A DNA stretch of 23,649 nucleotides from a virus: the IMG/VR virus record IMGVR_UViG_3300013285_000081, positions 1 to 23,649 of that record. The stretch is one strand, 5' to 3'. Positions 1,797 to 23,456 of the stretch are shown here, piece by piece. The notes beneath the pieces were generated by a model that saw nothing but the letters and a program-made list of their open reading frames with translations, was not told where the DNA came from and searched no databases. Position 1 is the first letter of the stretch; every line of letters starts with the position of its first letter. A program made the translations under genes and the position numbers.

Positions 1797-2120
1797 ATGG
1801 CAATTTCAAACGTATTAGTAACAGCAAGCAATTCAGTTATGTATGCAAGTACTGGAGCTTCAAACGCAGTTACATCAATGATTGTATGCAATTACGGAGC
1901 ATCATCGAGTAATTTAACATTATACGCAGTTCCAGCTGCCGATGTTAGCGGAACAACCACGCAGGCCAAACACACAATTATTTCAGCGTTACCAATTCCT
2001 CCGGGCGAAACTGTAAGTTTAGATCAAGAAAAATTAGTTTTAGCATCAGGCGATACATTGATTGCAGTAGCAAGTGTTGCATCAATGTTAGCATTTACAA
2101 TTAGCACATTGACAGTATAA
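1797..2120 (+). CDS. Small beta-sandwich-like virion protein, 107 aa
   Basis: AAGGA (1786-1790), which overlaps the upstream stop codon, is placed correctly for the ATG at 1797. The protein is short, Ser/Ala/Thr-rich and alternates hydrophobic strands (AVTSMIVCNYG, NLTLYAVPA, HTIISALPIPPGETVSL, LVLASGDTLIAVAS). That spacing resembles the small proteins encoded at 23130 and 23473, and the C-terminal domain of the 6589-7446 product: a LxY/LF start, a strand ending in N, a loop, then a GE..L....L.SGD/PS turn. I infer a shared Ig-like fold and an accessory or decoration role on the tail or fibres. The stop codon overlaps the next start (TAATG), which suggests translational coupling. I do not recognise a named family. 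Confidence 0.75.
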   Translation: MAISNVLVTASNSVMYASTGASNAVTSMIVCNYGASSSNLTLYAVPAADVSGTTTQAKHTIISALPIPPGETVSLDQEKLVLASGDTLIAVASVASMLAFTISTLTV

Positions 2121-3415
2121 TGAGATTCCTTAAACGCCAAGCACTAGATCGCAGATCTGCAAACAATACAACATTGTATTCGGATGCCGCACGAGCAAAC
2201 GTATACATTGCACCAGTAGGAGCAGGTAGTGTAATAGTTCCAGTTGGAACAAACGCACAACGTCCTGCAAATCCTACCAACGGAATGATGCGCTATAGTA
2301 CAGATGCTGTTACCAACGGACAAATGGAAGTTTATTCGGCAGGACGTTGGAGAGCATTACGTTACGCAGAACAAAAACAAATCATACAACAGAATTTGGG
2401 CGCAGGCGATGCCAACAATTTGTATTTTGGCCCACTAAATTCAACATACTATAATCCAAGCAATAATGCCAACAATGCCACAATTGGCGGCCAAAATGTT
2501 TTAGTTATTGTTGAAAACGTCATACAAGTTACAACTATAAACTATACAGTAGTTCAAAATCCTACTACAATTCCAGCTGAAAGCTATGCACCCAAACTGA
2601 GTTTTAATTCCACAGTTGGTAGCACAACATTATATTTTAATACTAGTTTAAGTGTTACAGGTGCTAGCGGAAACGGCACAACAGCAACTTTAACCTTTGC
2701 CACACAAGCACAAATCCCACTGGCAATTGGCGCCAGTATTGTAGTTACCGGCATTAATTCTACAGGCGGAGTTGGTAATTATAACGGAACATTCACAGTC
2801 ACTGGCAGTACAACTGGCAGCGTGAGTTGGTCAAGTGCAACTACAGCAACTTATCAAAACGGTGGCGAAGTTGATGCAGTGGGAGCAGTTTATCCAGCAG
2901 TTACTTTGTTAGGAGCCCAAGTCACTGGTACCAATCAGGCGGCTTCAACAATTCTTAGCACAGTGGCAATTACTGGTACAGCTGGGCAATTTAGTTGTAC
3001 AAGCACCACACTAGCAGTTAATCAAGCAGTGGTTATCAGCGGCACATTTGGCGGTACTGGCAGTATTACTGGCTATACTAATCCTACAACATATTATATT
3101 ACTGCTACTAATGGTACAACAACATTTACCCTAAGTTTAACCCCAGGTGGCGCTGCAATTACAACAACTGCTGGCACTCCAACAGGATTAACTTATACAC
3201 TGCCAGTTAGTATTTTGAGTTATGTTGTAGATCCCAACACTGATGCATTGGTCAGTGCAGTTATTAGCAAGGCAACTATAACATCAACTATAGCTGTAAA
3301 CACCACAGTAAACATTGCAGTATCAGCAATGTCCGGATCTGGTTACTATTTGCAGTTTAGTACACCGGTTCCGTATGGTAAGGTTGTTATAGCCTTGCTA
3401 GGCTTTGACCAATAA
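2120..3415 (+). CDS. T4-like tail fibre-like protein with inserted beta modules, 431 aa
   Basis: It starts at the ATG inside TAATG (2118-2122), sharing one base with the previous stop, so it is probably translated by coupling. The N-terminal 120 residues hold the recurrent phage fibre pattern VGTNAQRPANPTNGMMRYS, then MEVYSAGRWRALRY, and a conserved stretch with QNLGAGDANNLYFGPL and NVLVIVENVIQ. I know this combination from T4-like cyanophage structural proteins. The middle carries two inserted modules: an F..G..I.V.G...YNGT module at about residues 178-251, and a VxxAV.ISGT...YYIT module at about 275-355. The C-terminus (GSGYYLQFSTPVPYGKVV then LLGFDQ) resumes the family pattern, so the modules appear to interrupt an older core. 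There is no catalytic signature. A host-contact or baseplate-fibre role is inferred. Confidence 0.8.
   Translation: MRFLKRQALDRRSANNTTLYSDAARANVYIAPVGAGSVIVPVGTNAQRPANPTNGMMRYSTDAVTNGQMEVYSAGRWRALRYAEQKQIIQQNLGAGDANNLYFGPLNSTYYNPSNNANNATIGGQNVLVIVENVIQVTTINYTVVQNPTTIPAESYAPKLSFNSTVGSTTLYFNTSLSVTGASGNGTTATLTFATQAQIPLAIGASIVVTGINSTGGVGNYNGTFTVTGSTTGSVSWSSATTATYQNGGEVDAVGAVYPAVTLLGAQVTGTNQAASTILSTVAITGTAGQFSCTSTTLAVNQAVVISGTFGGTGSITGYTNPTTYYITATNGTTTFTLSLTPGGAAITTTAGTPTGLTYTLPVSILSYVVDPNTDALVSAVISKATITSTIAVNTTVNIAVSAMSGSGYYLQFSTPVPYGKVVIALLGFDQ
2652..2873 (+). repeat. YNGT-type beta module, copy 1
   Basis: This is a region of about 74 codons with the order VTGASGNGTTATLTF, LAIGASIVVTG, NYNGTFTV, SVSWSS and QNGGEV. 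The same order of strands recurs at 6652, 8201, 8615, 10342, 14936, 15680 and 17218. The copy at 10342 also begins VTGASGNGTTATLTF, so these two are the closest pair by eye. Confidence 0.7.
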
Positions 3416-3430
3416 CTTTAAGGTAACACC

Positions 3431-4936
3431 ATGGCCCAGATAGGTAGAATCAGCGGGCCGTTACTAACAGACAATCTTTTACGTAACGGTAACGACTTAG
3501 CATTTGAAACAAGTCTACTGTACTTAAAAGTTGGCACAAAAACCATTGGCGTTAACACCAACGCACCTTCAAACGATTTAACAATTAATGGTACTAGCAA
3601 TACCACAAATTTAATTGTACCAACTTATGCCAAGTTGGCTAACTTGGAAGTCACTACTAATCAAATACAAAACGTTCTAGGTAATATTACATTTGCCCCA
3701 ACAGGCGGAAGTGCCAAGATTGTTGCTCCTAAAATTGCCACAGCTAACTTGTCAATTACTGGCAATACGGTGTTAAACACCACTGCAAATAGCGATATCA
3801 ACATTGGATTAACTGGCACTGCTGGCCAGATTAAACTGAACAACGATGTGTTGGTTTCAGGCAATTTACATGCAACTGGCAATATTACCTTTGACGGAAA
3901 CATTGTTCTAGGTGACCAACCAACTGACACGATTACATTTGCCGCTGAAGTTGGCAGTGATATTTTACCCAGTGCAACGCTAACAGATAATTTGGGTTCC
4001 GCAAGTTTACAGTGGAGCACTGTTTATGTTTCTACCACTAACGGCAACATTACTCTTCCTAATTTTACAATATCTGGTAACACTATTGCAGGATCTGCTG
4101 CCAATAGTACTGTGTATTATACTGCTAACGGAACAGGCACAGTTAACACTGAATACTTGAATTGGTCCGATAACTCCATTACAAATATTTGGCCAGCTCC
4201 AACTACTGATACACAGCGTAGCATTATTTTTACACCCAACGGAACTGGTAACCTACAAATAAACTCCACTAAAAGTGTAATTTTACCTTTGGGAACTAAT
4301 AGTGACAGAACACTAGCTGCCAACGGTGAAGTTAGGTTTAACAGCTCAACTTTGAACATAGAAGGCTACCAGTCCAACGGGTATGTTAATTTTTTCAATT
4401 TGTACAGCCAGGATAGATTGACCTATATCACTGCTGAACTAACACCTGGCGCCGCAGATAAAATCCTAAGATTTTCAGTTAACAACACAGTAACTACAAC
4501 TATCGATAGTACTGGTGTAACAAATCAAAAATTAATCTCTGGCAATGTGCAAATTAGTGGCAATACCATTCAGAACACTAACGGCGGTACTGACTTGACG
4601 TTTTCCGCTAATGGCACAGGCGGCATAAATTTAGCAAATTTCTTAAAATTTACTAGAAACACTTTAACTAACACACAGAACTTACCGTTAACATTTAGCG
4701 GCACAGGCTATGGATATTATAAATTTGCAGGCGTTAATGGCGTGGGAATTCCTGTTAATACTGCAACAAACTATACTCCTCCCATTGGTACTATTAGATA
4801 CAACAGCACTGCAAGCTCAGGAGAAGTGTACACCAGTACCGGCTGGTCCATATGGACAGGTGCTCAGAATCAACTGATCACACAAACCCAAGACCAAGAG
4901 CTAACTCTCCTTTATACCCTTATGCTAGGGTACTAA
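3431..4936 (+). CDS. GRISGPLL-type fibre protein with GNTI repeats, first tandem paralogue, 501 aa
   Basis: The ATG at 3431 follows AAGGT (3419-3423). The N-terminus GRISGPLLTDNLLRNG then DLAFETSLLYLKV and IGVNTNAPSNDLTINGT is a family I recognise from T4-like cyanophage fibre proteins. The body is built of repeats of the form (L/I)S.NTI.N....D...(T/S)..GTG.(V/I), suited to a beta-helical or beta-prism fibre shaft. A central block (about residues 138-203) carries VSGNLHATGNITFDGN, then GDQPTDTITFAAEVGSDILP and LGSASLQWSTVY. Near the end, GTGYGYYKF.G..GVGIPV and IGTIRYNS precede a Trp-containing tip. The next gene is a full-length paralogue with the same block order. A shaft-and-tip structural role is inferred. 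The tail end (TQDQELTLLYTLMLGY) differs from the paralogue. Confidence 0.8.
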   Translation: MAQIGRISGPLLTDNLLRNGNDLAFETSLLYLKVGTKTIGVNTNAPSNDLTINGTSNTTNLIVPTYAKLANLEVTTNQIQNVLGNITFAPTGGSAKIVAPKIATANLSITGNTVLNTTANSDINIGLTGTAGQIKLNNDVLVSGNLHATGNITFDGNIVLGDQPTDTITFAAEVGSDILPSATLTDNLGSASLQWSTVYVSTTNGNITLPNFTISGNTIAGSAANSTVYYTANGTGTVNTEYLNWSDNSITNIWPAPTTDTQRSIIFTPNGTGNLQINSTKSVILPLGTNSDRTLAANGEVRFNSSTLNIEGYQSNGYVNFFNLYSQDRLTYITAELTPGAADKILRFSVNNTVTTTIDSTGVTNQKLISGNVQISGNTIQNTNGGTDLTFSANGTGGINLANFLKFTRNTLTNTQNLPLTFSGTGYGYYKFAGVNGVGIPVNTATNYTPPIGTIRYNSTASSGEVYTSTGWSIWTGAQNQLITQTQDQELTLLYTLMLGY

Positions 4937-4944
4937 CCAAAATC

Positions 4945-4954
4945 CGATAAATAC
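4945..4954 (+). promoter_or_regulatory. Putative T4-type late promoter box
   Basis: CGATAAATAC lies just after the stop of the previous gene. T4 late promoters use a TATAAATA box at -10 with no required -35 element, and cyanophage versions often read ATAAATAC. By that spacing, transcription would begin near 4959, leaving a leader of about 118 bases before the ATG at 5077. The same ATAAATAC octamer appears upstream of the 14450 gene. I saw no other intergenic copy. Confidence 0.6.
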
Positions 4955-4961
4955 TTTTGAT

Positions 4962-4985
4962 TATGAGAAATGACCATTTCTCATA
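4962..4985 (+). other. Near-perfect hairpin/dyad at predicted late transcript 5' end
   Basis: Arms of 11 bases (TATGAGAAATG at 4962-4972 and its exact reverse complement at 4975-4985) flank only two bases. As RNA this would form a ten-pair stem with a four-base loop. It begins a few bases after the predicted late start. It could protect the mRNA 5' end, terminate read-through, or be a DNA dyad bound by a protein. There is no downstream T run, which speaks against a simple terminator. Confidence 0.65.
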
Positions 4986-5076
4986 TGGTCCGACTGTGGT
5001 AAACCCGCAAAGAGCCCTTGATTTTATGGGATGAAAAAGTGGTTAACCGTGAAACACGGGGTAAACGGGAGCGTAA
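4986..5076 (+). other. Structured leader with GTGGTAAAC-like repeats
   Basis: The rest of the gap has no reading frame that I can support. It holds three similar nine-base words, G(T/G)GGT(A/T)AAC, at 4996, 5039 and 5058. It also has an eight-base palindrome GGTTAACC at 5041-5048 and a small hairpin (CCGTG 5047-5051, loop AAA, CACGG 5055-5059). GGGAG at 5067-5071 is the likely ribosome binding site for the gene starting at 5077. The purpose of the repeats is unknown. A translational control element is one possibility. Confidence 0.45.
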
Positions 5077-6585
5077 ATGGCTGTTGGTCGTATTTCAGGG
5101 CCGCTCTTAAAAGACAATTTACTTCGCAACGGGGTAAATTTAGCTTTTGAGACGAGCCTTCTCTATCTGGATGTTACTGGCACTCGCGTCGGAGTTAATA
5201 CAACGGCTCCTGGTTACACCTTAGATGTCAACGGCACTACAAACAGCACCAATTTAAATGTAGGTAGCACATCAAATCTTGCTACTTTTACCTTATCCGG
5301 TAATACAATCGCAAGCTCGTCCAGTACAATTAATTTGTTACCGACCGGAGCAAGCGGAGTAGTATATCAAGGAATTCTGTCAGTTGGTAACTTTAATATA
5401 GCTACCAACACTATTACAAACACTACCAATAATGATGACATAAACATCACATTGACCAGTGCCACTACAGCTCAGATCAAGTTAAACAACAACGTTTTAG
5501 TTACAGGCAATTTACACGCAACTGGAACCATTACTGCTGATGGTAATATTCAGTTGGGCGATATGCCTACTGATACTATTACATTTACCGGCGAAGTCAA
5601 TAGCAATATTCTTCCAAGTGTAACCAACACATACAACTTAGGTTCTGCTGGTTTACAATGGAATAACATATATGCTGGCACAGTTAATACTAGCATTTTC
5701 AACTCTGGTAATGTACAAATTTCTGGTAATACAATTACCACAACAAACACCAACAGTACATTAATTTTAACAGCCAACGGTACTGGCAACGTACAAATAC
5801 AGAATTTAGCTGTTAACAACAATGTTATCAGTAGTGTAAACACCAACGCAAATATTGTATTAACTCCTCAAGGAACTGGCAGTGTTGTTATTAACAGCAA
5901 TCAAAGTTTAATTATTCCAGTAGGTAATACTGCCACTCGCCCAACCCCTCCTAGTAACGGTATGATACGTTATAATAATCAACTGAATCGATACGAGGGT
6001 TACAGTAGTGCAGGTTCAGGAAACTGGACTGTTTTGGGAGGAGTATCAAGTATTGATGGAAATACATATATTACTCCAGAAACTACTCCGGGTGCTGGAA
6101 ATAATGTAATTAATTTTTATGCAAACAGCGTAAACAGTGCATATATTAACAGCACTGGACTGTATACTCTTGATTTTAAAACAGCAAACATAGACATCAC
6201 CGGTAATACGATAAGTACATATACCGCTAATACCGACATGAACCTTACTCCAAACGGATCAGGTAATGTGATTTTAGGTAGTTTAACGTTTAATACAAAC
6301 ACAGTAACAAACAACAATAACGGAGCAGTTACGCAGTTTGTTTCGTCAGGAACTGGGTATTATTCGTTTGGTAACACATACGGTGTAGGCATTCCTGTAG
6401 GAACTGGAAATAATCGTCCTCCTACAATTTATGCTCAAACGGGTATGATTAGATTTAATACAGATTCGCAATCTGTAGAAGCTTTTAATGGCGCGGCTTG
6501 GTCAAGTGTTGTTGGTAATGCAGGTGGAATTACTTCTACCCAAGCACAAGACATTGGCATAGCAACGGTATTAACATTTGGATAA
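5077..6585 (+). CDS. GRISGPLL-type fibre protein with GNTI repeats, second tandem paralogue, 502 aa
   Basis: The ATG at 5077 is five bases after GGGAG (5067-5071). The N-terminus GRISGPLLKDNLLRNG then NLAFETSLLYLDV and GVNTTAPGYTLDVNGT matches the upstream paralogue block by block. The central block is also shared: VTGNLHATGTITADGN, GDMPTDTITFTGEVNSNILP and LGSAGLQWNNIY. The shaft is made of ISGNTI..T..N..L.LTANGTGNVQI-type repeats. Unlike its twin, it has the full fibre motif VGNTATRPTPPSNGMIRYN then RYEGYSSAGSGNW, and a second GMIRFN...VEAFNGAAW block near the C-terminus. The twin keeps only weak traces of these. It has its own promoter-like box and long leader, so its dose may differ from that of the twin. 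A fibre shaft/tip role is inferred. Confidence 0.82.
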   Translation: MAVGRISGPLLKDNLLRNGVNLAFETSLLYLDVTGTRVGVNTTAPGYTLDVNGTTNSTNLNVGSTSNLATFTLSGNTIASSSSTINLLPTGASGVVYQGILSVGNFNIATNTITNTTNNDDINITLTSATTAQIKLNNNVLVTGNLHATGTITADGNIQLGDMPTDTITFTGEVNSNILPSVTNTYNLGSAGLQWNNIYAGTVNTSIFNSGNVQISGNTITTTNTNSTLILTANGTGNVQIQNLAVNNNVISSVNTNANIVLTPQGTGSVVINSNQSLIIPVGNTATRPTPPSNGMIRYNNQLNRYEGYSSAGSGNWTVLGGVSSIDGNTYITPETTPGAGNNVINFYANSVNSAYINSTGLYTLDFKTANIDITGNTISTYTANTDMNLTPNGSGNVILGSLTFNTNTVTNNNNGAVTQFVSSGTGYYSFGNTYGVGIPVGTGNNRPPTIYAQTGMIRFNTDSQSVEAFNGAAWSSVVGNAGGITSTQAQDIGIATVLTFG

Positions 6586-6588
6586 AAG

Positions 6589-7446
6589 ATGACAACAGTT
6601 TTTAAAAATTCGTTTGCTACTAGTATAACTGGCACACAAACTACTCTAAGTATAACATCTGTTACTTCGAGCTCGCCCAGCGCCGGCTATGTAACTTTTG
6701 GATTTGCAACCCAAACAGCCGCTCCTTATGCCGCTGGTACAAACATATATGTTTCTGGGCTGTCGGTATCTACATTTAACGGCGGGTATGCTGTGACATC
6801 ATCAACCGTGAGCAGTGTTACAGTATCCAGCAGTAACGTCACTGCAATTAAAGGTGCAATGAATGCTAACACCACATTTACTTCATTATCAGGTACAAGT
6901 GTAACTGCGGCTGCAACTTACTCAGGAGTTGGTCAACTATCAACTAGCGGCACTGGCACTGGCGCAACATTTAATATTACAAAAACTGGATCAGGCACTG
7001 CCTACAGCGGAGTTACTACTATTACTTTAGTCAATCCAGGAACAGGTTATGCAATTGGCGACACTATCACTGTTAATGGTGCATTGTTAGGCGGGCTGTT
7101 AGGTTCAAATAGTTTGACATTTACAGTTGGTGCTTCTGTGACATTGTTGTCAGGTTCTGTAGTTAATACACTTTTATTTACAAACGCTTCGGCAACAACT
7201 ACTATTATTGGACTAAGTTTAACTAACACATCAAGCGAATTGACTTTAGTCACAATACAATTGCAAGATACATTAGCTGGTACAACTGCTTATTATATCA
7301 GTAATGCCCTGGTTCCTGCTTATCAAAGTTTGCGTGTAGTTACCAACGGCGAAAAATTAATTTTGGGCCCTAGTACAAACATGTTTGTTACTACAAATAT
7401 TCCGCAGAGTATAGATTCTGTGATTAGTTGGGTTGAAATCAGTTAA
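6589..7446 (+). CDS. Modular beta-rich virion protein, 285 aa
   Basis: The ATG at 6589 is three bases after the previous stop. The only Shine-Dalgarno-like bases are TTTGGA just upstream (6577-6582), so coupling to upstream translation is likely. Three parts are visible. Residues ~20-85 are a module of the F..GT.I.V.G....NGGY.V type. Residues ~120-185 are the GTGATFNITKTG...GYAIGDTITVNG module also seen at the window start and twice in the 2888-residue protein. Residues ~190-285 are a domain with NTLLFTNAS, IIGLSLTNTS, VTIQLQDTLAGTTAYYIS and VVTNGEKLILGPSTNMFV. I know that domain as a recurrent small beta domain of T4-like phage structural proteins. It looks like a small accessory domain with two shuffled modules in front. 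The role in the virion is inferred. Confidence 0.78.
   Translation: MTTVFKNSFATSITGTQTTLSITSVTSSSPSAGYVTFGFATQTAAPYAAGTNIYVSGLSVSTFNGGYAVTSSTVSSVTVSSSNVTAIKGAMNANTTFTSLSGTSVTAAATYSGVGQLSTSGTGTGATFNITKTGSGTAYSGVTTITLVNPGTGYAIGDTITVNGALLGGLLGSNSLTFTVGASVTLLSGSVVNTLLFTNASATTTIIGLSLTNTSSELTLVTIQLQDTLAGTTAYYISNALVPAYQSLRVVTNGEKLILGPSTNMFVTTNIPQSIDSVISWVEIS
6652..6840 (+). repeat. YNGT-type beta module, copy 2
   Basis: The encoded order ITSVTSSSPSAGYVTFGF, APYAAGTNIYVSG, TFNGGYAVTSS and VTVSSSN matches the other copies. The usual YNGT turn is changed to FNGGY. Confidence 0.6.
6949..7135 (+). repeat. GSGATF/LGG beta module
   Basis: The encoded order GTGATFNITKTG, AYSGVTTITLVNPG, GYAIGDTITVNG, LLGG and NSLTFTVG matches bases 57-240 at the window start almost step for step. 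More distant copies lie at 16170-16380 and 20973-21165. Confidence 0.68.
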
Positions 7447-7457
7447 AGGAATTTATT

Positions 7458-7817
7458 ATGTCATACTATCTTGCAGGTCAAAACACAGAACTATTGGGCG
7501 GCCGCCCACGATATTTTTACGCTCTCCGCAGGACAGACGCTGGCGACCTATATGTTCAAAAGATTGATACATTGTACAGCACTGACAGTGCGATGATCAA
7601 TACTCCTGGCGATCAAGCCAATAATTTTTTACAGCTGGATGCTGGTGTAGACTTCTTTGAAGGCAGAGATGTTTATCACAATTTAGTGTATCCAAACTTA
7701 AATTACGAACAACATCGTTGGGACGATGTTAGTATTAATTATTATATAGATGCTACTGGAGAACTGGTAGCTAGAATGAACCAGGCTTACAACTATCCAG
7801 CCGCTAACCAAGCGTAA
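7458..7817 (+). CDS. Small conserved T4-like phage structural-cluster protein, 119 aa
   Basis: AAAGGA just before the ATG at 7458 gives a strong ribosome binding site. The sequence has NTELLGGRPRYFYALRR then DLYVQKIDTLYSTDS, LDAGVDFFEGRDVYHN, NLNYEQHRWDDVSINYY and IDATGELVARMNQAYNY. It is rich in Tyr, Asp, Arg and aromatics, unlike its Thr/Gly/Asn-rich neighbours, and it contains none of the shuffled modules. I recall similar short proteins of unknown function in T4-like cyanophages, always among the fibre genes. It could be a connector, an assembly factor or a small structural part. There is no membrane helix or signal peptide. It sits directly upstream of the first giant fibre gene with a 20-base gap, so the two are probably co-expressed. 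Confidence 0.75.
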   Translation: MSYYLAGQNTELLGGRPRYFYALRRTDAGDLYVQKIDTLYSTDSAMINTPGDQANNFLQLDAGVDFFEGRDVYHNLVYPNLNYEQHRWDDVSINYYIDATGELVARMNQAYNYPAANQA

Positions 7818-7837
7818 ATAGCTAAAAGGTATATGCA

Positions 7838-10800
7838 ATGACACAATTTAGAATAGACAGAATTAGATTTACTTGGAAAGGTGCTTGGAATCAAGGCACC
7901 TTTTACACCAAAGACGACATTGTTCAGTACGGCGGCAAATCCTACGTCTGTCTAGTAGGCCACACATCCACATTACAAACTTCTACAACTGTAAACGGCA
8001 TCACAACCAACACTGGATTTTATACAGATCTTTTTCAAATCAATACCGCAGTAACTCCAAACGTACCAAATCCATACTGGCAATTATGGTTTGATGGTTA
8101 CACATACAAAGGTAACTGGACCAACGGAGTAATATACAATTTGGGAGACATTGTAACTTATGACAGTTTGGTTTATATTTGCAATACAGGTCACACTAGT
8201 GTGTCAAGCACTATGCCAATTTCTATAACATCTGCATCCGGGGATGGTAATTTTGTAACATACGGATTTAGTACACAAATAATCCAACCGTTCAAAGTTG
8301 GAAGTTCTGTAACTATAACAGGAATAACTCCATCAAGTTATAACGGAACATTTACAGTTGTAAATGCCACTGTTAACTCAATTACAGTTACCAGCACAGT
8401 TGTTGCTGTATCTACTATTAATCAAAATAGCACATTGGTTAGTGCTGGATCTCCAGGATTACAATTAGGATTAGAATACAATCAAACCTATTGGACTAGT
8501 TATGCTATCACTGATAACTGGCAAAGTACATGGACAGCAAACACTCGTTATCAAGTTGGCGATGTGGTAAAAAATGGCGGCACAACATACCGATGCACAA
8601 CTGCTCATATAAGCGCACCAGCTACAGCATTTATATCAATAACTGGAATTAGTTCAAGCAGTCCAAGTATAGGATTTGTAACATTAAGTTTTGGATCATT
8701 AATACTTCCGCCGTTTGCCATAGGATCAACAATTACAGTTAGCGGTGTAGGTATAGGATATAATGGAACGTGGACTGTAACAGCATGTACATCGACTACT
8801 GTTGTATTTGCAAATAGTACAACTACAGCGGCAACTGCTGGAAAGGTAAGCGGCCCGAGCCAATTGGGGTTAGAATACAATACTTCCAACTGGACCATAG
8901 AAACACAAACAGACAAGTGGGGAACAGAGTGGACAATCGCAACTCGATACAAAGTTGGTGATATTGTAAGATATGGTGCTTATGTTTACCGTTGTACCAC
9001 AGCGCATGTAAGTTCATCGATATTGGCATTGGGTTTGGAAAATGACTCAAGTAGCTGGCAAACAGTATTGGCTGGTGTAGATTATAAATCAGCTTGGCAG
9101 GCTAACTTTAGATATAAATTGAATGATGTTGTAAAATTTGGTGCCAATGCATATATAGCCAACGTTTATCATACTAGCACAACAACATTTGATGCCACTA
9201 AATGGAATATTTACGCTCCAGGATACGAATACAAAGATCAGTGGAATGCCTCTACAATTTATGTGCCGGGCGATGTGGTAAAATTTCACGGATACAGTTG
9301 GGTGTGTATTGCGGCAAACAGCAATAGCGACCCGTCAATTAGCCCTACGTACTGGTCATTTTCAACAAGCGGTTATTTTACTAGTGGCGATTGGGCCTCT
9401 GGTGTGAATTATTATCCAGGAGATGTGGTAAGACGCAACGGTCAACTGTATGTGGCTATCAGCGACAGTTTCAGTTATGACCCGTCAGCAGTAGGCAATA
9501 CTGTCTATTGGACACTAATTGTTTCTGGAAGTTACTGGGCAAATCGTTGGACTATTGGTGTGGTCTACGCAGTAGGGGATGTTGTAACATATTATGCTAC
9601 CAGCTATAGATGTCTACAGACTAATACTGCATCTAACGGTAATAATCCTTTGACAGATCTTGCACGAGCATATTGGAATATTTACGCACCCGGTGATCGT
9701 TTTGAAGTAATACAAAATCCAGGGGATATTACTACCTACACAACAACGCAAGTAGCATTGCCTATCGGCACACCTGGTATGGTGTTGAAATCAAACGGAG
9801 TCCAGCCAGTATGGAGTCAGTACGGTCAGATTAATAACATTTATTATGTTGCTACTAGTGGAACAGATGCAGTAAATTACGGACTAACATTAAACTCTCC
9901 ATTTGCCACTGTTGCATATGCTTGTAACTATGTATTGAAAGGTGCGTACTTTCAAAATACCGCTTATTTGTTAACGCAAAACAAAGTATGGCTGGTTGCA
10001 GAAATGTACAATTGGATGCTGTACCAGAAACAGATTTCTTCTGCACCGTTTAGTCCTAGCTCAGTCTTTGATCCACAAAGAATGCAACGTGATGCCGAGT
10101 ATATTATTGACGCAATTATTTACGATATAACACGAGGCGGCAATAGCCAATCAGTTGCTTCAGCATTTTCTTATTTTCAATCGGGTACAAACTCTTTTTA
10201 TACAACATCCAACAATGTAATTACATCTACAGAGATGCCGTTTTTTACAGCCGCATTGGCTCGTCTAAACAGTCTAATATCTAATGCATTAAGTCAGTCT
10301 GCTCCTAGCTCTAGCTATCAAGGATTAATGAATGCATCAACTGCTAACGTTATCGTAACTGGTGCTAGTGGAAATGGAACAACTGCCACATTAACTTTTA
10401 ACACTCTAGCTAATCAGCCGTTTACTGTTGGAGAATCAATAATTGTAAGCGGAATATTGCCAGCTGGTTATAATGGCACTTATGTAGTATCAGCTGTTAG
10501 CAATACTAGTGTAAGCTATAGCAATGTAACAATGTCCACATACGTTTCAGGCGGATCGGTATTGGGTTCAAACGTAACTCAATTTGTTAATCTCAGTTAT
10601 ATTTTAGAAGCTAATGCCGTACCTACTGTAAGTAGTTTGCTGGGAATTATTACTACAGCATTAAACAGTGCCAGTGCTGTTGGTATCCCAGCGGCCAATA
10701 CTGGCGTAACTAGTACGATTTTTGTTAAAGACGGAACTTATAATGAAGTACTACCTATTAGTGTTCCAGAAAATTGCGCTATTGTTGGGGACGAATTAAG

Positions 10801-13800
10801 GGGAACTATCGTTCAACCTGCATCAAAAACTATAAATTTTACAGGATCAATTGCATTACAAGCATTAACAATCACCGCATTAACTTCTACCATTTTAACT
10901 GCACAAAGCATAACTGCTACCACTGCCGGAATATTAGGAACAACAAAACTTGGCGGCATAGTGACTGTGGCCAGTACAGCTGGTTTGGCAGTTGGCAATA
11001 TTTTTACTTCAACTGGTAATACTTTAAATCTAGGCGGGTTGGCCAACAACACATATTATGTAGGGTCAATCATATCGTCAACTCAGTTGACATTGAGTAG
11101 CACATATCCTAATGCACTGGCTGGCACATACATTACATTATCAACTGCAACAATTACATCTACAACATTCACTGCTTACAATAATATATCTATAGGACAG
11201 TGGATTTCTTCTAATACAATGTATTATCCAACACAAATTACTGGCCAACTATCAGGAATTACAGGCGGTCCAGGAATTTACTCAGTTGATTTAAGTCAAA
11301 CAGTTTCAAGTGTTGCAATGATAGCCAGTTACTACACTGGTAACATGTTCTATGTAAGAAACGGCGCTGGTATAAGAAATATGACTCTAAGCGGGTTGAC
11401 TGGAACGCTTGGCCCCCTTAACAGTTATTTAACTCAACGACCTACTGCTGGTGCTTATGTAAGTTTAGACCCAGGCGCAGGCCCGTACGATACTAGTGTT
11501 TGGATTTTTAGAAAATCTCCTTACGTTCAAAACGTAACAACATTTGGCACTGGGTGTGTAGGTCTCAAAATTGATGGAGCTTTGCACAACGGCGGAAACA
11601 AATCAGTTGTGGCTAACGACTTCACACATGTTTTAAGCGATGGAATTGGTGCATGGTGTACTGGTGCTGGGTCGTTGACTGAGCTAGTGTCAGTGTTTAG
11701 TTATTATTGCCATGCAGGATATTTGTCAGAAGCAGGCGGTAGAATTCGCGCTACCAATGGCAACAGCTCTTATGGAACCTACGGTGTAGTGGCCGAAACA
11801 TACGATGCATCCGAAGTTCCAATTACTGGTACTGTGTTTAATAGATATTACCAAGCTCAAATACAATCTGCATTTGCCGGACAAGCCAATAATAAAATAT
11901 TATTGTTAGAATATGCTAACATGGGGCAAGATTATACTAATGCTACTATTTCTTTTGCAGGAGCAGGTACTCTTGCAAGCGTGATACAAGATGAATTTAG
12001 AGATAGCGGAATTTTTGAAACGCATTTGATTGGACAATCTTATGGCCTGGGCGGCAGCGGCTATGGTTCAGCTGGATCACAGGCGCAAGCTGGAACAACC
12101 ACATCAATCACAGTGGCTACAGCTGATTCAGGAAGCATCAGCACATATCTTGGAATGAGACTTATTATTGTCAGCGGCACAGGAGTTGGACAATATGGTT
12201 ATATTACTGCATACAATACAAATACCAAAGTAATATCAATATCAGCAGAAAGTACAGGGCAAGCAGGTTGGGATCATGTTATACCCGGAACTCCAGCAGT
12301 AGCTGTGTTGGATACTACAACACAGTATGCAATTGAACCTAGACCATCGTTTGTTGCACCTGCATACAGCGCCACATCAAAAACATTGCCTAACTTAGAT
12401 GTATGGACTGCTACAGCATACGGTGCTGGTTATTTTGTTACTATTGGTGTGGACGGACTAAGTGCTTACAGCAATGACGGAGTTAATTGGATCGGCGGCG
12501 GATCACTTGGCCCAGCAATCACTTGGCAAACACTAGCTTACGGTAACGGATACTTTGTTGCCATTGGTAACGGCTCAAGCACTGCTTCGTACAGTATTAA
12601 TCAAGGGCAGAGTTGGACAACATCTGCGTCAATGCCGTCCAACTCTCCGTGGACTAGTGTGGTATACGGTAATGGCAGATTTGTTGCAGTATCTTCGGGA
12701 GGTGTGGCAACTGCAATATCTACCAACGGTACATCATGGACCGCAGGCGGCAACTTGCCAAGTTCTGCCACATGGTCTGGAGTTGCTTATGGATCTATTG
12801 GCACATGGGTAGCTGTTGCCAACGGCGGGACAGCTTCTGCCTATAGTACCAACGGAGGAGCTACTTGGGTTGCAAGCAACGGCCTACCAAGTAGTCAAAA
12901 CTGGGTTGGAGTCACTTGGGGCAACGGACGATTTGTAGCGTTAGCTGGCGGGGTGCTGGGTTCAAGTACATCAACTGCTGCCGCTTATAGTTTTGATGGT
13001 ATTACATGGATTGCAGGAACATTGCCAAGCAGTCAAAATTGGGTCGCTGTCAAATATGGTCAGGGATTGTTTATGGCCATAGCAACTGCTACCACAGTGT
13101 CTGCAACTAGTCAGGACGGACTAGTTTGGACACAACAAGCCTTACCAGTAAGCACATATTGGAATGATGTTGCATTTGGTAATCCAACAATTATTGGTGC
13201 CGTTACTCCTACATGGGTAGCTGTGTCTGGATACAGTTTGTTGTTATCTAATTATGCGGCAAATATTTTAGCTGGCGCAACTGCAAGAGGACGCATTGTA
13301 ACTAGCGGCGGAACAATTACACTTGTTAAAATGTGGGAGCCAGGTTCTGGATATAGGACTACTCCTACTTTATTGATAACAGATCCAAACGTGGCACTAA
13401 ACAGTGGAACTCCGGCAACACTGTTATGCAGGACTGCTAACGGAGTACTTGCCCAACCCACATGGTTAAATCGAGGGCAGAATTATCAAACAAGTACAAC
13501 TAGGGTAACTGTGTCCGGTAATGGAGTCGCAGATATTTTGCAAGGTCCTGGCAATTTAATTGTTACAGGAATTCAGCAAGCTCCAACACCGGGCGCCGGT
13601 ATGTTAATTTCAGGAAACGGCCTACAATACAACATTGTAATAATTACCCCACTAGGAGGAACTACATATCAGTTCCAATTGAGTGTTAATCTTGATAACA
13701 ATGTACAACCTGTTAATGGTACAGCAGTTTCCATCCGTGTTAAGTACAGTCAAGCTCGACTAACTGGACACGATTTCTTATACATCGGTACTGGTAATTT

Positions 13801-14392
13801 CAGCACAACAAACTATCCTAACGTAAACACAAATACTGCATTACAGAATCAGCAAATTCAATTTAATGGCGGCGGTCGTGTATTCGTAGTTAGTACCGAT
13901 CAAGATGGTAACTTCAAAGTGGGTAATTTATTTGGAGTACAACAAGCAACGGGTATTGTAACAGTTAATGCAAGTTTGTTTAATTTGAACGGAGTGTCAG
14001 CACTAAGTCTTGGCGGAGTATCTGTAGGTCAAAATGCTGTAGTTGTTACACAGTTTTCAACAGACGGTTATTTTACTGCAAACAGTGATGCTATTATTCC
14101 TACACAGAAAGCAATTAAAGCCTATGTAGGACGAGCGATTTCGTTAGGCGGCTCAAATGCGGCTACTGGAACTGCCATTGCAGGTACCGTAGGTGTTGGA
14201 GTGTATAATGGTTATAATGCTTCAATTTTTAGTTCGGTAGTAGGTGGTACAATTTATATGGGACGTACAGGAACTGCAACTGTGAACAAGGTTAATTTTA
14301 CAGGTTCTAGCGGAGGCACGGCAGCAGGAGTTGACGGCGGCCTGTTAGCTATGGCGTTTTTCCATCATGGATTTGGCGGAAGCCAATTTTAA
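7838..14392 (+). CDS. Giant modular fibre-like virion protein A, 2184 aa
   Basis: AAAGG (7825-7829) precedes the ATG at 7838. Domains in order: residues ~12-619, eight units of W....W....Y..GD.V..G..Y.C...HTS......W, resembling chitin-binding type 3 (CBM5/12) modules; ~628-660, the linker GDITTY...LPIGTPGMVL; ~667 on, a pectate-lyase-like beginning (YYVATSGTDAVNYG), a segment rich in likely helices (NKVWLVAEMYNWMLYQ, IIDAIIYDITRGGNS) and FVKDGTYNEVLP..VP; ~835-911 and ~1025-1167, inserted beta modules; ~1170-1330, the conserved KSPYVQNVTTFGTGC, DFTHVLSDGIGAW and NGNSSYGTYGVVAE; ~1523-1810, a seven-blade propeller with S.DG..W boxes; ~1977-2100, GHDFLYIGTGNF, STDQDGNFKVGNLF and PTQKAIKAYV. The last stretch is Gly-rich and ends in AFFHHGFGGSQF. 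I infer a glycan-contacting fibre or spike. A depolymerase role for the helix region is possible, but I see no identifiable catalytic residues. Confidence 0.85.
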   Translation: MTQFRIDRIRFTWKGAWNQGTFYTKDDIVQYGGKSYVCLVGHTSTLQTSTTVNGITTNTGFYTDLFQINTAVTPNVPNPYWQLWFDGYTYKGNWTNGVIYNLGDIVTYDSLVYICNTGHTSVSSTMPISITSASGDGNFVTYGFSTQIIQPFKVGSSVTITGITPSSYNGTFTVVNATVNSITVTSTVVAVSTINQNSTLVSAGSPGLQLGLEYNQTYWTSYAITDNWQSTWTANTRYQVGDVVKNGGTTYRCTTAHISAPATAFISITGISSSSPSIGFVTLSFGSLILPPFAIGSTITVSGVGIGYNGTWTVTACTSTTVVFANSTTTAATAGKVSGPSQLGLEYNTSNWTIETQTDKWGTEWTIATRYKVGDIVRYGAYVYRCTTAHVSSSILALGLENDSSSWQTVLAGVDYKSAWQANFRYKLNDVVKFGANAYIANVYHTSTTTFDATKWNIYAPGYEYKDQWNASTIYVPGDVVKFHGYSWVCIAANSNSDPSISPTYWSFSTSGYFTSGDWASGVNYYPGDVVRRNGQLYVAISDSFSYDPSAVGNTVYWTLIVSGSYWANRWTIGVVYAVGDVVTYYATSYRCLQTNTASNGNNPLTDLARAYWNIYAPGDRFEVIQNPGDITTYTTTQVALPIGTPGMVLKSNGVQPVWSQYGQINNIYYVATSGTDAVNYGLTLNSPFATVAYACNYVLKGAYFQNTAYLLTQNKVWLVAEMYNWMLYQKQISSAPFSPSSVFDPQRMQRDAEYIIDAIIYDITRGGNSQSVASAFSYFQSGTNSFYTTSNNVITSTEMPFFTAALARLNSLISNALSQSAPSSSYQGLMNASTANVIVTGASGNGTTATLTFNTLANQPFTVGESIIVSGILPAGYNGTYVVSAVSNTSVSYSNVTMSTYVSGGSVLGSNVTQFVNLSYILEANAVPTVSSLLGIITTALNSASAVGIPAANTGVTSTIFVKDGTYNEVLPISVPENCAIVGDELRGTIVQPASKTINFTGSIALQALTITALTSTILTAQSITATTAGILGTTKLGGIVTVASTAGLAVGNIFTSTGNTLNLGGLANNTYYVGSIISSTQLTLSSTYPNALAGTYITLSTATITSTTFTAYNNISIGQWISSNTMYYPTQITGQLSGITGGPGIYSVDLSQTVSSVAMIASYYTGNMFYVRNGAGIRNMTLSGLTGTLGPLNSYLTQRPTAGAYVSLDPGAGPYDTSVWIFRKSPYVQNVTTFGTGCVGLKIDGALHNGGNKSVVANDFTHVLSDGIGAWCTGAGSLTELVSVFSYYCHAGYLSEAGGRIRATNGNSSYGTYGVVAETYDASEVPITGTVFNRYYQAQIQSAFAGQANNKILLLEYANMGQDYTNATISFAGAGTLASVIQDEFRDSGIFETHLIGQSYGLGGSGYGSAGSQAQAGTTTSITVATADSGSISTYLGMRLIIVSGTGVGQYGYITAYNTNTKVISISAESTGQAGWDHVIPGTPAVAVLDTTTQYAIEPRPSFVAPAYSATSKTLPNLDVWTATAYGAGYFVTIGVDGLSAYSNDGVNWIGGGSLGPAITWQTLAYGNGYFVAIGNGSSTASYSINQGQSWTTSASMPSNSPWTSVVYGNGRFVAVSSGGVATAISTNGTSWTAGGNLPSSATWSGVAYGSIGTWVAVANGGTASAYSTNGGATWVASNGLPSSQNWVGVTWGNGRFVALAGGVLGSSTSTAAAYSFDGITWIAGTLPSSQNWVAVKYGQGLFMAIATATTVSATSQDGLVWTQQALPVSTYWNDVAFGNPTIIGAVTPTWVAVSGYSLLLSNYAANILAGATARGRIVTSGGTITLVKMWEPGSGYRTTPTLLITDPNVALNSGTPATLLCRTANGVLAQPTWLNRGQNYQTSTTRVTVSGNGVADILQGPGNLIVTGIQQAPTPGAGMLISGNGLQYNIVIITPLGGTTYQFQLSVNLDNNVQPVNGTAVSIRVKYSQARLTGHDFLYIGTGNFSTTNYPNVNTNTALQNQQIQFNGGGRVFVVSTDQDGNFKVGNLFGVQQATGIVTVNASLFNLNGVSALSLGGVSVGQNAVVVTQFSTDGYFTANSDAIIPTQKAIKAYVGRAISLGGSNAATGTAIAGTVGVGVYNGYNASIFSSVVGGTIYMGRTGTATVNKVNFTGSSGGTAAGVDGGLLAMAFFHHGFGGSQF
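8201..8464 (+). repeat. YNGT-type beta module inserted in binding unit 2 of protein A
   Basis: The segment between HTS (ends 8200) and LGLE (from 8465) encodes ITSASGDGNFVTYGF, PFKVGSSVTITG, SYNGTFTV and SITVTST. Unit 4 of the same protein runs straight from HVS to LGLE and lacks the insert. Confidence 0.75.
8615..8863 (+). repeat. YNGT-type beta module inserted in binding unit 3 of protein A
   Basis: Between HIS and LGLE the codons give ISITGISSSSPSIGFVTLSF, PPFAIGSTITVSG, GYNGTWTVTA and VSGPSQ. The position is the same as in unit 2. Confidence 0.75.
10342..10570 (+). repeat. YNGT-type beta module in the interrupted beta-helix of protein A
   Basis: VTGASGNGTTATLTF, PFTVGESIIVSG, GYNGTYVV, SVSYSN and YVSGGSV are encoded. 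A counterpart sits at the same place in protein B (17218-17450). Confidence 0.75.
10910..11335 (+). repeat. TYYVG module plus QLSG/GIYS module in protein A
   Basis: First part: LGGIVTVASTAGLAVGN, NNTYYVGSIISSTQLTL and NALAGTYITL. Second part: FTAYNNISIGQWISS, QITGQLSGITGGPGIYSV and VSSVAM. Protein B has both parts at the matching place (about 17790-18450), with extra sequence inside the second. Confidence 0.65.
12404..13255 (+). repeat. Seven-blade propeller repeat of protein A
   Basis: Blades begin at W: WTATAYGAGYFVTIG, WQTLAYGNGYFVAIG, WTSVVYGNGRFVAVS, WSGVAYGSIGTWVAV, WVGVTWGNGRFVALA, WVAVKYGQGLFMAIA and WNDVAFGNP....TWVAVS. The first six end in a sialidase-type Asp-box-like S.(D/N)G..W turn. 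The seventh lacks it and may close the ring. The fold is inferred from the repeat number and pattern. Confidence 0.75.
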
Positions 14393-14420
14393 ACTAGTAA
14401 AATACGCGGAATGTAAGATC

Positions 14421-14430
14421 ACATAAATAC
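14421..14430 (+). promoter_or_regulatory. Putative T4-type late promoter box
   Basis: ACATAAATAC sits in the 57-base gap before the second giant gene and shares ATAAATAC with the box at 4945-4954. Transcription would begin near 14435, giving a very short leader that starts at the ribosome binding site AGAGGA (14434-14439). Confidence 0.6.
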
Positions 14431-14449
14431 ATCAGAGGAATAAAATAAA

Positions 14450-17400
14450 ATGGCAGAATTTAAACTTGGTAGATTGCGTTTTGTATGGCAAGGCAATTGG
14501 ACAACTGGCACCGGATATGTTAAAGACGATGTAGTAAGAGTCGGCGGTAAAACCTACGTTTGCGTAATTGGCCACACTGCGTCGCCGTCATTTACAACTG
14601 ATCAAAGTGCAAATCCTACAAAATGGAACCAAGTAACAGACGGATCTAACTGGACTGGTAATTGGGCTACTAACACACAGTACAATTTAAATGACCTCGT
14701 AAAGTACGGCGGAATAGTTTATATTTGTAGCATTGCTCATACCAGTGCGCCAACAGCATCCTCAGGAACTAGTCCAGACACTACTGCTGGATTAGAAAAA
14801 GATCAAGGAAGTTGGACTGTTTATGCCAGCAGTTTCAACTGGATTGGTTCATGGACAAACAGCTTTAGATACAAGGCTAACGATGTTGTCAAGTACGGCG
14901 GCGAAACTTATGTATGTAATGTTGGCCATACTAGTGCGATTAGCTCACTAGCAACAACCACATTGGCTACAACAACTGCAAGCGCATCTGGTGGAACTGC
15001 CACAATTGGTTTTGCAACACAAAGCAGTGTTCCATTTAAAATTGGTACCACAATTACCATTGCAGGAGTAACTCCTCTTGCACTTAACGGTGTGTATACT
15101 GTTACCAACTGTTCTACTACTCAAGTACAATTTGCATTAGCAGGCACACTTGGTCCCCAAACGGTTGCAGGAACCGTTGCAGGCCCACAGTTAGTTGGAT
15201 TTGGATTAGAAATTGATCAAGCAAAATGGACTCCGTTTGCCGATGGATTCAGCTGGCAAGGCACATGGATCACTAGTAACTACTATCGTGTTAACGATAT
15301 TGTAAGTTATGGCGGATACTTATATGTTTGTAACACTGGTCACACCAGTGCCAATACTACAATGTTGGGACTAGAAGCTAATCAAAGCTACTGGGATTAT
15401 TACCACAAAGGGTTTTCTTATACTGGTAACTGGAATGCATCTAGTGTAAGATATAAAATTAACGACATTGTTGCCTACGGTGGCGACAATTGGATTTGTA
15501 TTACACCTCATACAAGTAGTGCATCTTTTGCGGCTGTAAACTGGCAGAGATTTGTAGAAGGCCTATCATATATCAATACATGGAGTAGTGCTACTACTTA
15601 CGCACCAGGTGCAATAGTAGGTTACGGTGGCTACACATATATTGCAGAATCCATAAACACCAACGTTGTGCCTTCAACAGATGTTGCAACTCCAACAAGT
15701 CTTGCAATCACTGCGACAACTAGCACAGCTAGTGTTGCAACGCTGACAGTTGCCAGTGGAGGCACCGCATTTACTTCTGGTCAAACAATTACAGTTGCAG
15801 GAGTAACACCTGCCGGATATAACGGACAATACACTGTTATAGGAACTCCAACTGCAACACAAATTCAATATGCAATTAACAACGGCCCACTTGGCGCTGG
15901 CTCTGCATTTGGTACAGTTACAAGCAACAATTGGTTATTATTTGTAACAGGTTATAAATTAATTGGCGATTGGGCCACAAGCCAGACTTATCAAGTTGGT
16001 AACGTAGTTAGAAATGGTGGATACACTTATGTTTGTATCTTAGATCACACATCTGGTGCTGGCAATCAAATGCCCAATACTACCTATTGGTCAAGATTAA
16101 ATAGTGGTATAAGATGGAATGCCGTTGTACAAAACTTTACAAGTCTAAGCCCAACCAACGTAACAGTAACCAACGGTTCTGCTGCCGGTTCAACATTTAC
16201 TATAGCCACAAATGGTACAGCATACACAGTTACAAAAACAGCCAACGGTACAAACTATACTGCTAATGACGTAATTAAAATTTTAGGTAGCAACGTTGGC
16301 GGTATTAGTCCGTTTAACGATATTACAATTACTGTAAACACTGTAACAACAGGCGGTATTACAACATTTACAGCTACTGGTTATGCAAGTACATGGGCGG
16401 CAACGCAAGCGTATGTTGCAGGCGACACAGTTGTATACGGACCAAACAGTTATATTTGTATTCTTGCGCATACAAGTGCTACTGGTAATCGTCCAGACAA
16501 TGATCTAACAGCAACATATTGGAACTTGATCGCGGCCGGTGCAAGCACAAGTATTCTAACAACACAAGGTGACTTGCCATACTATGGTAGTAACGGTGCG
16601 ACACGTTTGCCTATTGGCACAGCTGGACAAGTATTAAAGGTTTCACCAACTGGATTTCCAAGTTGGGGCACATTTGGGTTAATTAGCAACGTTTATTATG
16701 TGTCTAATGCCAACGGAGTTGATAGTCCTGCTCCTGGATATGGTCAAACATTAGATCGCCCTTGGAAAACCATTGCCTATGCCGCTAAACAAGTGTTTAA
16801 CGGTACTGCTTATCCAAATGCATCGTTTTTGTTAAATCAAAACAAAGCATGGATGATTGCAGAAATGTACAACTGGATGATTTATCAAAAGGTAAACAGT
16901 GTTGCTCCATATAGTCCAACATCGTCTTATGACCAATACAAAACTAGCAGAGATGCTGGTCTAATTGTAGACGCTATCATTTATGATATCACACGTGGCG
17001 GCAATAGTCAAACTGTTGCGGCCGCACTGTCTTATTTTAAACAAGGCAGTACAAATACATTCTATAATACTAGTATTGCCGCACAAGTGGCTTTCTATAC
17101 ATCTTCATTGGCAAGATTGTCAATCTTAACTGGTAACGTGCTTGCACAGACCACACCTACTGCTTATCAAGCTGGTATCACTAACTATCAAAGTACCAGC
17201 GGCGGAACAGCCACGTTGTCTGGATTAGGTATTACTGGTATTACTAATGCAAACGGGTTAGTGACATTTACATTTGCATCTCAAACTAATGCACCGTTTG
17301 CAATTGGCGAAACTATTACAATTGCCAGCGTTAATCCTGGTGCATATAATGGTACTTATAAAGTAGTATCTTATAGTCAAACCAGCGTTACAGTATCAAG

Positions 17401-20400
17401 TGTGTTAACCAACACTTATGTTAGTGGCGGAACTATTGCTGGATCGGCAATAACTCAAGTGTTAGACGCAAATTACCCAGCTGAAGCCGGAGCTTCAACA
17501 CTAGTTTCAAATTATATTAGCATTATTACAACAGCATTGACTAATACTAGTACTGCTGGAATTCCAGCAGCCAATACTGGAGTAACTAGCACTATCTTTA
17601 TCAAGAACGGAACATACAACGAAGTACTACCAATTACTGTTCCTCAGAACGTGGCGTTGGTCGGCGATGAACTTCGCGGAGTTATCGTACAACCATTGCT
17701 AGCTCAAGGCAGTTTTACAGGCAGTGTGGCAACAACAACATTGACTTCAACAGCCATGTCTACAATTTTGTCTAGTCAAAGTATTAGCGCAACAGCCGCT
17801 GGAACTTATGGCACAACATCTTTGGGTGGAGTTTTAACAGTAAACAGCACATTGGGTTTACTGACCGGGCATGTATTTGTAGTTACAGGTGCAGGAGGAG
17901 GTGGATTAGCCGCTGGTACTTATTATGTTGGACAAGTTCTTACTAGCACAACATTAAACTTATCTACTAACTTTGCAAATGCACTAGCAGGTACTTACAT
18001 AGCATTTACTTCATCAACACCAAGTGCTACTACATTTACAGCTTATGGCAGTATTATTGCTGGATCATACCTAAGTGGATCTTCAACTATTACAGCACCC
18101 TTGCAAATTACTCAGCAACTGACAGGCGCAAGTGGTTCTGCAATAACAAGTCAAACATTCAATGGTACTAGTGGTGCATTTACAATTACACTATCTAGTT
18201 CAAACAGCACAGTTGCAATTGGACAATTTGTATCTGGAAATGGGGCAACAATTTCAGGTATTCCTGTAAACACATTTGTAACAAATGTTAGCGGTACCAC
18301 AGTTACACTAAGCAACGAAATTACCACGGCATTTACTGGGTTTGCCACTACATTGTATTTCTTTACAGCAGGGCAAACTGGTACTTACAGTATTCCAAGT
18401 TCAACTTACACTATTGGAAGCACAACGCTAACAGCTGGATATGTAACAGCCAATATGTTCTACTTACGCAACGGCAGTGGTGTTCGTAACATGACTCTAT
18501 ATGGCTTAACTGGGTCTGTAGGAACTCCTGTAACAATTAGTTCAGGAAGCATTACGGCTACTACAGCTGGCACATACGGAACTGCTACCAGTTCAACTGG
18601 CGGATTTATTACTGTTGCCAGCACAGCAGGATTTAATACAGGTAACACATTTAGTATATCAGGATCTGCTGGCAACGGCTTAACAGCAACAACTTACTAT
18701 GTTGGAACTGTAATTGATGCAACAACATTGACCTTGGCAACTTCCTATAATAATGCCATAGCTGGAGTATTTGTCACATTGACAACTAATGCTAGTTATA
18801 GTGGAACAACATATACATTAACTTATGGTACAAGTCGTCCAACAGCTGGTGCATATACCAGTTTAGATCCTGGAACTGGCCCAGCTGATAGTACAGCATG
18901 GATTATTCGTAAGAGTCCTTATGTACAAAACGTAACTACTTTTGGTACAGGTTGTGTTGGATTAAAAATTGACGGAACTTTACACAACGGCGGTAACCGA
19001 AGCATTGTATGTAACGACTTCACACATGTTCTAAGTGACGGTATTGGAGTATGGGCATACGGTCCAAATGCACTAACAGAGTGTGTGTCAGTGTTCTCAT
19101 ACTACAATCAGATTGGTTATTTGGCTGAAGCAGGTGCTAAGATTCGTGCTACTAACGGTAACAGCTCTTATGGTAGTTACGGTGTTGTAGCTGAAGGCTA
19201 TGATGTAACTGAACCAGTTGTAACAGCAACTATTAATAACAGATATACAAACCCAATCGTGGGTGCAGTAGTAACTGATGCTGTTAATAAAATATACCGC
19301 GTTGAATTTACTAACGCAGGACAAAATGCCAACTCTGCTACTATCACATTTGCCAGTGCAGGTGGATATGGACTAGTACAAATAGCTAATGAATTTAGAG
19401 ATAAAGCTGTATTTGAAACTCGCTGGTTAACTGCTGGTGCAAACTATGTAACAGCTAGCAATACCGGTCAAGGTGGAACATTAACATCAATGACTATTGC
19501 CGCTACTGACCAAAATATTAGTAGTGTTTATGTAGGCATGCGACTATTAGTTACTGGCGGAACAAGTGCTGGCATAACTGGTTGGATTGCAAGTTATAAC
19601 AACGGTAGCAAAATTGCTTTGATAGCTAAAGAAAGTTTTACAACATTAACTGTTACTGGAACAACAACTGGAACTGCTAGTGCTACAGGTATTATTTCTG
19701 CAGGCGCAAACGTAGCAGGATCTGTGTTTATTCCAACAGGAACTGTTACTGGTTCATTTGTTCCAGGAATGTTTTTAACTAGCAGTGGTACTGTTATCGC
19801 CGGTACATATATTACTGCGGTAACTGTTGGTACAATTAACTCACCTTCAATTGCAAGCACTGTTGTCAGCAGTTCGGGAACAGTTGGTAGTATCAGTGGT
19901 ACAGGTCCGTGGACTGCAACTATCACCGGTATGAGTACAACTACTGGATTCATCGTGGGTGCTCCAATTACTGCTACAGCTGGTAGCGGTACGCTGTATG
20001 GCGGTAGCCCAACTAGCGTAGTTGTAACAAGTATTGTTAGTCAAACAAGTATTACTTACAGAGTAACTGGTGGCACAACACCAACAGCTGGAACAATAAC
20101 CAATGCTTCTACAACGGTATTAACTGCCAGTGCTGGCTCTCTTGGATTGTTGGCAGGAGCAGTTCCAAGCGGTGGCTCCGTAACAGCTGGTACTTACGTA
20201 CTTGGACAATTGACCACAACTGGAACAGCGGCAGTAACGGCCACATTTACGGGTACTTCTACTCAAACTACATTAACTTTAAGCTCATATACCGTAGGTA
20301 GTGGATTGCTAATTACAGTTGGTATGTTTGTTGCGCCAATCAGCGGTATTCCGTCAGGTACTTATGTAACTGCGGTCAACATGAATGCCAATCAAATTAC

Positions 20401-23129: not shown

Positions 23130-23456
23130 ATGGCAACAGGAAGATTCGGGGCAGTAGACATAAGTTTGGCAGCAACAGACACATTGCTATATACAGCCCC
23201 TGCTGGTTACTTTACTGTGGCAACAGTTTCGATAGTAAACCGAACAAACTCAAGTGCAACAGTGAGGCTAGCTATCAGTTCCAGTTCAACTACCATGTCC
23301 AACTCAGAATTTCTTGAATACGAATGCGAAGTTTTAGCTCACGGTGTTTTAGAGAGAACTGGCCTAGTGTTGCAAGCTGGGTATTCTATACTGTTTAGAT
23401 CAAGTATTCTTGGTGTTAATGCAGTGGCATACGGCATAGAAACATCAACAACATAA
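23130..23456 (+). CDS. Small beta-sandwich-like virion protein, first tandem copy, 108 aa
   Basis: CGGAGAA sits just before the ATG at 23130, 13 bases after the giant fibre gene. The sequence MATGRFGAVDISLAATDTLL, YTAPAGYFTVATVSIVNR and SATVRLAISSS is a pattern I recall from small, often multi-copy structural-cluster proteins of T4-like cyanophages. The rest (EVLAHGVLERTGLVLQAGYS, ILFRSSILGVNAVAYGIE) completes an alternating strand pattern fitting an Ig-like fold. There is no signal peptide, membrane segment or catalytic motif. A near copy follows directly. It could decorate a fibre or tail sheath, or cap the giant fibres. This is inferred from its context only. Confidence 0.8.
   Translation: MATGRFGAVDISLAATDTLLYTAPAGYFTVATVSIVNRTNSSATVRLAISSSSTTMSNSEFLEYECEVLAHGVLERTGLVLQAGYSILFRSSILGVNAVAYGIETSTT

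Follow-up and report, generated by a model that had tools for sequence, protein, structure and literature searches.

The window analysed here is the whole 23,649-nt stretch that makes up the record IMGVR_UViG_3300013285_000081, a contig of an uncultured virus. It holds a tail-fibre operon comprising o1, o2, o3, gA, gB, gC, gD, gE, gF, gG and gH, all on the plus strand. Two of these genes, gF (7838–14392) and gG (14450–23116), are paralogues with eight CBM5/12 matches each, the former encoding a tail fibre protein of 2184 aa and the latter a protein of 2888 aa. Over several stretches, both match the profile of the phrog_9851 tail fibre family (E 3.5e-157 for gF and 1.8e-146 for gG), which places them in this family. 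Homologues of gF include the tail-fibre-like PSSM2_301 of Prochlorococcus phage P-SSM2 and proteins of other Kyanoviridae. Viral contigs yielded relatives that keep this gene order; the loci compared below include L014, L015, L016, L036, L096, L101 and L103. A T4-type gp23 capsid gene is present in two of the relatives with this gene order, so the phage of the window can be regarded as T4-like. We infer that this virus is probably of freshwater origin. Searches of cultured phages at the DNA level returned nothing near the window, and tblastn with the module copy at 10346 (see below) gave no match among them.

A domain of about 75 aa, module A, occurs in the window eight times, always on the plus strand. 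One copy (2642–2875) lies in gA (2120–3415, 431 aa), and another (6652–6855) in the small gene gD (6589–7446, 285 aa), where it follows residue ~13 of what is otherwise a protein of ~111 aa. Three copies belong to gF: two in loops of CBM5/12-like units 2 (8210–8422) and 3 (8633–8857), and one at a central site (10340–10570). The last three are found in gG, in the loops of units 3 (14954–15190) and 6 (15692–15928) and at a central site (17222–17449) equivalent to that of gF. The first-pass annotation, made by reading translations, had reported these eight copies, and all of them are present within a few bases of where it put them. It had also described them as sitting in otherwise different proteins; different virion genes do carry them, but gF and gG are paralogues, and the copies that it began at 10342 and 17218 occupy the equivalent site.

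The eight copies are homologous. Each of them, when left out, is recovered by a profile built from the seven that remain (i-E 7e-10 to 1.5e-20), and the same approach revealed no ninth copy among the window proteins, the next best score being below 5 bits. Pairwise amino-acid identity ranges from 20 to 48%, and synonymous sites are saturated in every pair. Viral contigs were searched with a three-copy alignment, the eight-copy one having too few conserved stretches. All of the host proteins are rich in Thr, Gly and Ser, and just five columns are invariant across the copies; one might thus see here look-alike beta linkers whose similarity is a matter of convergence or composition. However, the leave-one-out values far exceed what a Thr/Gly-rich composition yields elsewhere in equally Thr-rich proteins, and a confident common fold is predicted for the copies. 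We consider this explanation already refuted and extremely improbable. As for the opening VTGASGNGTTATLTF, which the first-pass annotation had found to be shared by its copies at 2652 and 10342, the likeness exists at the protein level but not at the DNA level: fourfold-degenerate sites agree at only 4/27, so VTGASGNGTTATLTF is a conserved protein sequence rather than recently copied DNA.

Other cassettes are present in the operon as well. Cassette B, a beta cassette (GSGATF...GTGYA.GD.I.I.G..LGG..N.LTFTV), has four copies in o1, gD and gG (63–248, 6949–7134, 16175–16345 and 20987–21160), and the one in gD stands directly behind module A. Cassette C (GTYGTT..GG.LTV...TYYVG.V.S.T.LTLS..Y.NALAGTYI) has three copies in gF and gG (10904–11152, 17777–18016 and 18545–18790) and is found in several relatives too. 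Cassette D (TTYYITATNGTTTFTLSLTPGGAAI) occupies 2948–3202 in gA, which also carries module A, and has relatives in L108, L112 and L016.

Several further features of the operon deserve comment. The longest DNA stretch common to the relatives (5039–5176, 91–93% identity) spans the gB–gC gap together with the beginning of gC; the genes flanking it are far more diverged, and it is possibly a conserved promoter or another regulatory site. Near the 3′ end of gG, 50 bases (22682–22731) are conserved at ~94% identity in L101, L103 and L036, despite the far greater divergence of these loci elsewhere. L036 and L016 have a counterpart of this stretch close to the end of the fibre gene upstream, and the stretch could thus act as a recombination point between the paralogues. 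Downstream, gH (23130–23456) is followed by a second, partial copy of its start, 73% identical, which runs off the contig (23114–23639); relatives such as L016 have two tandem gH copies.

Filled and empty sites and the history of the copies

Comparison with the relatives reveals orthologous sites that are filled with module A in some phages and empty in others. The clearest series comes from gD, whose product is 111–117 aa long without any insert (L016, L101 and L103) and ~187 aa long with module A (L096, L014 and L015). In the window, where A and B are both present, it reaches 285 aa. The gD site is also empty in L107, L110 and L112. The gA site is empty in L101 and L103. In gF and gG, CBM5/12-like units carry the module in a loop between HTS and GLE, and the filled units vary from phage to phage: the window, L096 and L015 have it in unit 3 of gG, L016 in units 2 and 4, and L101 and L103 in no unit. 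Likewise, the gF site of unit 2 is empty in L101 and L103, and that of unit 3 is empty in L096, L016, L101 and L103. The central site behaves differently. Both paralogues carry the module there in the relatives compared, including gG of L101 and L103 (by alignment and full-record search), so the two central copies of the window go back to one old insertion. Although gF and gG are homologous to the phrog_9851/T4-GC296 fibre of Kyanoviridae (P-SSM2_301) over their CBM5/12 and C-terminal parts, the marine Kyanoviridae homologues of gF have no copy of module A.

A careful tree was built from 51 copies over ~77 columns; being unrooted, it makes insertion and loss look alike at most sites. The copies cluster by site across phages, and not by genome. 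The copy at 15692–15928 falls with the unit 6 copies of L096, L016 and L015 (100/99), the central gG copy groups with its orthologues (100/98), and the gD copies form a clade of their own (99/94). In 26 of the 32 copies that have a same-site partner, the best match lies at the copy's own site. A topology that unites the eight window copies in one clade is rejected (p = 1e-7).

Nevertheless, discordant copies exist. The copy at 14954–15190 matches the L036 copy of the central site at 68% identity, with flanks at ~20%; to copies at the orthologous site its identity is only 38–45%, and there the flanks reach ~58–71%. Such a pattern, seen in sequence comparisons, points to probable replacement by a foreign copy, with an AU p of 0.053 that is not strictly significant. 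The gF.d copy of L015 pairs with the gG unit 4 copy of L016 (100/98). A replacement was likewise considered for the copy at 2652, but the careful tree groups it with the gA copies of L015 and L016 (support 94/30), and we do not claim it.

Exchange between phages has left traces in gD. L015 and L096 are 69% identical overall, and a sliding-window comparison found a 120-nt patch inside the gD module that is 97.5% identical, the highest of 1382 windows. Contig L014 (IMGVR_UViG_3300006100_000032) is 100% identical to L096 up to about base 1110 and to L015 from about base 1051, the switch of parent falling at the 3′ end of the gD module, on the patch common to L015 and L096. It is either a natural recombinant or an assembly chimera formed at the shared patch. 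Among the near-identical DNA tracts listed between phages at 90%, no long one covers a module.

The first-pass annotation had suggested that the fibre genes exchange a common cassette, possibly by recombination between copies, in order to vary the virion surface. The first half of this proposal stands: module A is insertable, its sites are filled or empty depending on the phage, and certain copies have changed site or passed from one phage to another. An active system reshuffling the fibre genes of one genome fares much worse. The crowding of eight copies in four neighbouring genes would fit such a system, as would clades that mix sites (for instance, gF unit 3 with gD and gF unit 2 at 98/97) and the unit 1 copy of L015 gF, which is nearest, at 63%, to unit 3 of gG in its own genome. 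Recent recombination among the eight copies is nevertheless contradicted by their saturated synonymous sites (4/27 even for the showcase pair), by the rejection of a single clade and by their tracking of site; of the 168 within-genome pairs in all the loci compared, only one, a tandem pair in L072, looks recent. Neither are the modules clearly hypervariable. Their identity mostly stays near that of their flanks, and in five informative close pairs, the divergence of the module was similar to that of its host in three and ~1.8 and ~2.8 times higher in two, which amounts to no consistent excess. The idea of a varied surface is thus weak at best, and intragenomic reshuffling, largely refuted for recent time, appears to us very unlikely.

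One may go to the opposite extreme and regard the modules as structural spacers that date from an ancient form of the fibre and are inherited vertically, with losses alone making the difference between phages. The prevalence of same-site best matches (26 of 32) and the central site filled in both paralogues of all compared relatives speak in favour of this scenario. However, it would have to accommodate the discordant copies, the differences between phages in the CBM units that are filled, and the presence of the module in unrelated virion proteins, including a sheath copy that is missing from sheaths ~70% identical (see below); we find it unlikely. Overall, copies are exchanged between phages and, on a longer time scale, from one site to another.

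The predicted fold and ubiquitin E1 FCCH

An AF2 model of module A, made from an alignment of 115 copies, is a small all-beta domain of seven strands (pLDDT 90.6). When a CBM unit was modelled together with its insert, two beta parts were obtained at lower confidence (pLDDT 79). Compared with the PDB, the module model gave ubiquitin E1 structures as all of its best 28 matches (~85 aligned columns, TM ~0.7 by query length, best E 1.2e-3, probability 1.00), and against the isolated FCCH domain (2v31), TM was 0.70/0.58. Module A, as modelled, has an FCCH-like fold. Among predicted viral proteins, matches reached E values down to 6e-8 and came mostly from uncultured Caudovirales.

A sequence relationship between module A and FCCH was tried in three ways and was not found, with the human UBA1 FCCH letters confirmed against PDB sequences. 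Run at E <= 10, the E1_FCCH profile (PF16190) did not match the window; hhalign of the phage family against an FCCH alignment of three sequences only gave a probability of 0.2% and a score within those of column-shuffled controls; and the family HMM scored FCCH no better than shuffles. Hence, we say that module A folds like FCCH, and not that it is a member. FCCH provides the nearest solved fold, and within E1 it is likewise an inserted domain, but no parts of an E1 enzyme surround the phage module. It is tempting to suppose that the phage module and the FCCH domain of eukaryotic E1 enzymes share a common ancestor; the data show a shared, predicted fold alone, and we hold such ancestry to be unlikely. 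If true, the phage decoration domain would have been a prokaryotic pool for the E1 insert, or the reverse. The bacterial genomes searched for the module yielded one weak match only, and the literature searched contained no paper linking FCCH-like folds with phage virions. Some databases may annotate such phage proteins under an E1 FCCH superfamily name, and fold-based automatic annotation may give them ubiquitin E1 names.

The comparison that first comes to mind for an extra domain on virion proteins is with Ig-like domains, known as additional beta domains on tail sheaths (PMC9230969) and, in another virion example, as Hoc (PMC10385173). For their exchange and proposed weak carbohydrate binding, PMC9230969 cites Fraser et al. 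2006. Like them, module A is a small beta domain that sits in several unrelated virion proteins as an insert and whose presence varies among related phages. Unlike them, it is predicted to fold as E1 FCCH and not as an Ig beta-sandwich: the 50 top PDB matches listed include no Ig structure, no solid Pfam Ig, FN3 or Big match was obtained for the module, and the 25 Pfam families most often matched weakly by the 115 members include none of Ig type.

Module A as a probable decoration domain of virions

Module A is not confined to fibres. It was also found in tail sheath proteins of other phages (phrog_10581 and phrog_23), in a virion (head) structural protein of phrog_3287, in a central tail fibre J, in a tail protein and in an SU10-type adaptor. 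The sheath of L064 carries a second copy at 571–645, which is absent from the ~70% identical sheaths of L033 and L045. That the module occurs in sheaths, an adaptor and head proteins as well suggests a generic decorating role and not one limited to adsorption specificity.

Taken together, we favour, with a probability of about 80%, the reading that module A is a promiscuous, insertion-competent and independently folding decoration domain of virions, kept by site and sometimes replaced. According to this scenario, a beta domain of ~75 aa, probably exposed on the surface of virion proteins, would enter surface loops of its hosts, such as the one after YGG..Y.C...HTS in CBM5/12-like units or the first turn of gD, and leave the host fold undisturbed. 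It would then stay at its site and be inherited with the gene. Over longer time scales, copies may be lost, gained or replaced, presumably through recombination between co-infecting phages, for which the module itself or the flanking repeat units could offer the homologous stretch. Its role may be weak binding to cell-surface glycans, or spacing and stiffening of the virion. These possibilities recall the Ig-like phage domains, which are inserted or appended and exchanged between phages, and for which weak binding of cell-surface carbohydrates or virion stabilisation has been proposed.

Fragment shuffling and domain mosaicism are frequent in receptor-binding proteins of phages, both tail fibres and tail spikes (PMC10684548). 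What is added here is one specific, undescribed domain traced over sites, phages, empty sites and several classes of host proteins. Many environmental phages bear module A in sheaths, fibres or head structural proteins, or in an adaptor, yet we found no Pfam family that covers it, and its PHROG matches are weak; it seems to be an add-on surface domain in wide circulation, poorly covered by protein-family databases. Promiscuous decoration domains of phages are known mainly as Ig-like, and module A would add another fold to them. Comparing syntenic genomes in which a site is filled or empty shows which positions of virion proteins accept an additional domain, and the role of such decorations thereby becomes testable.
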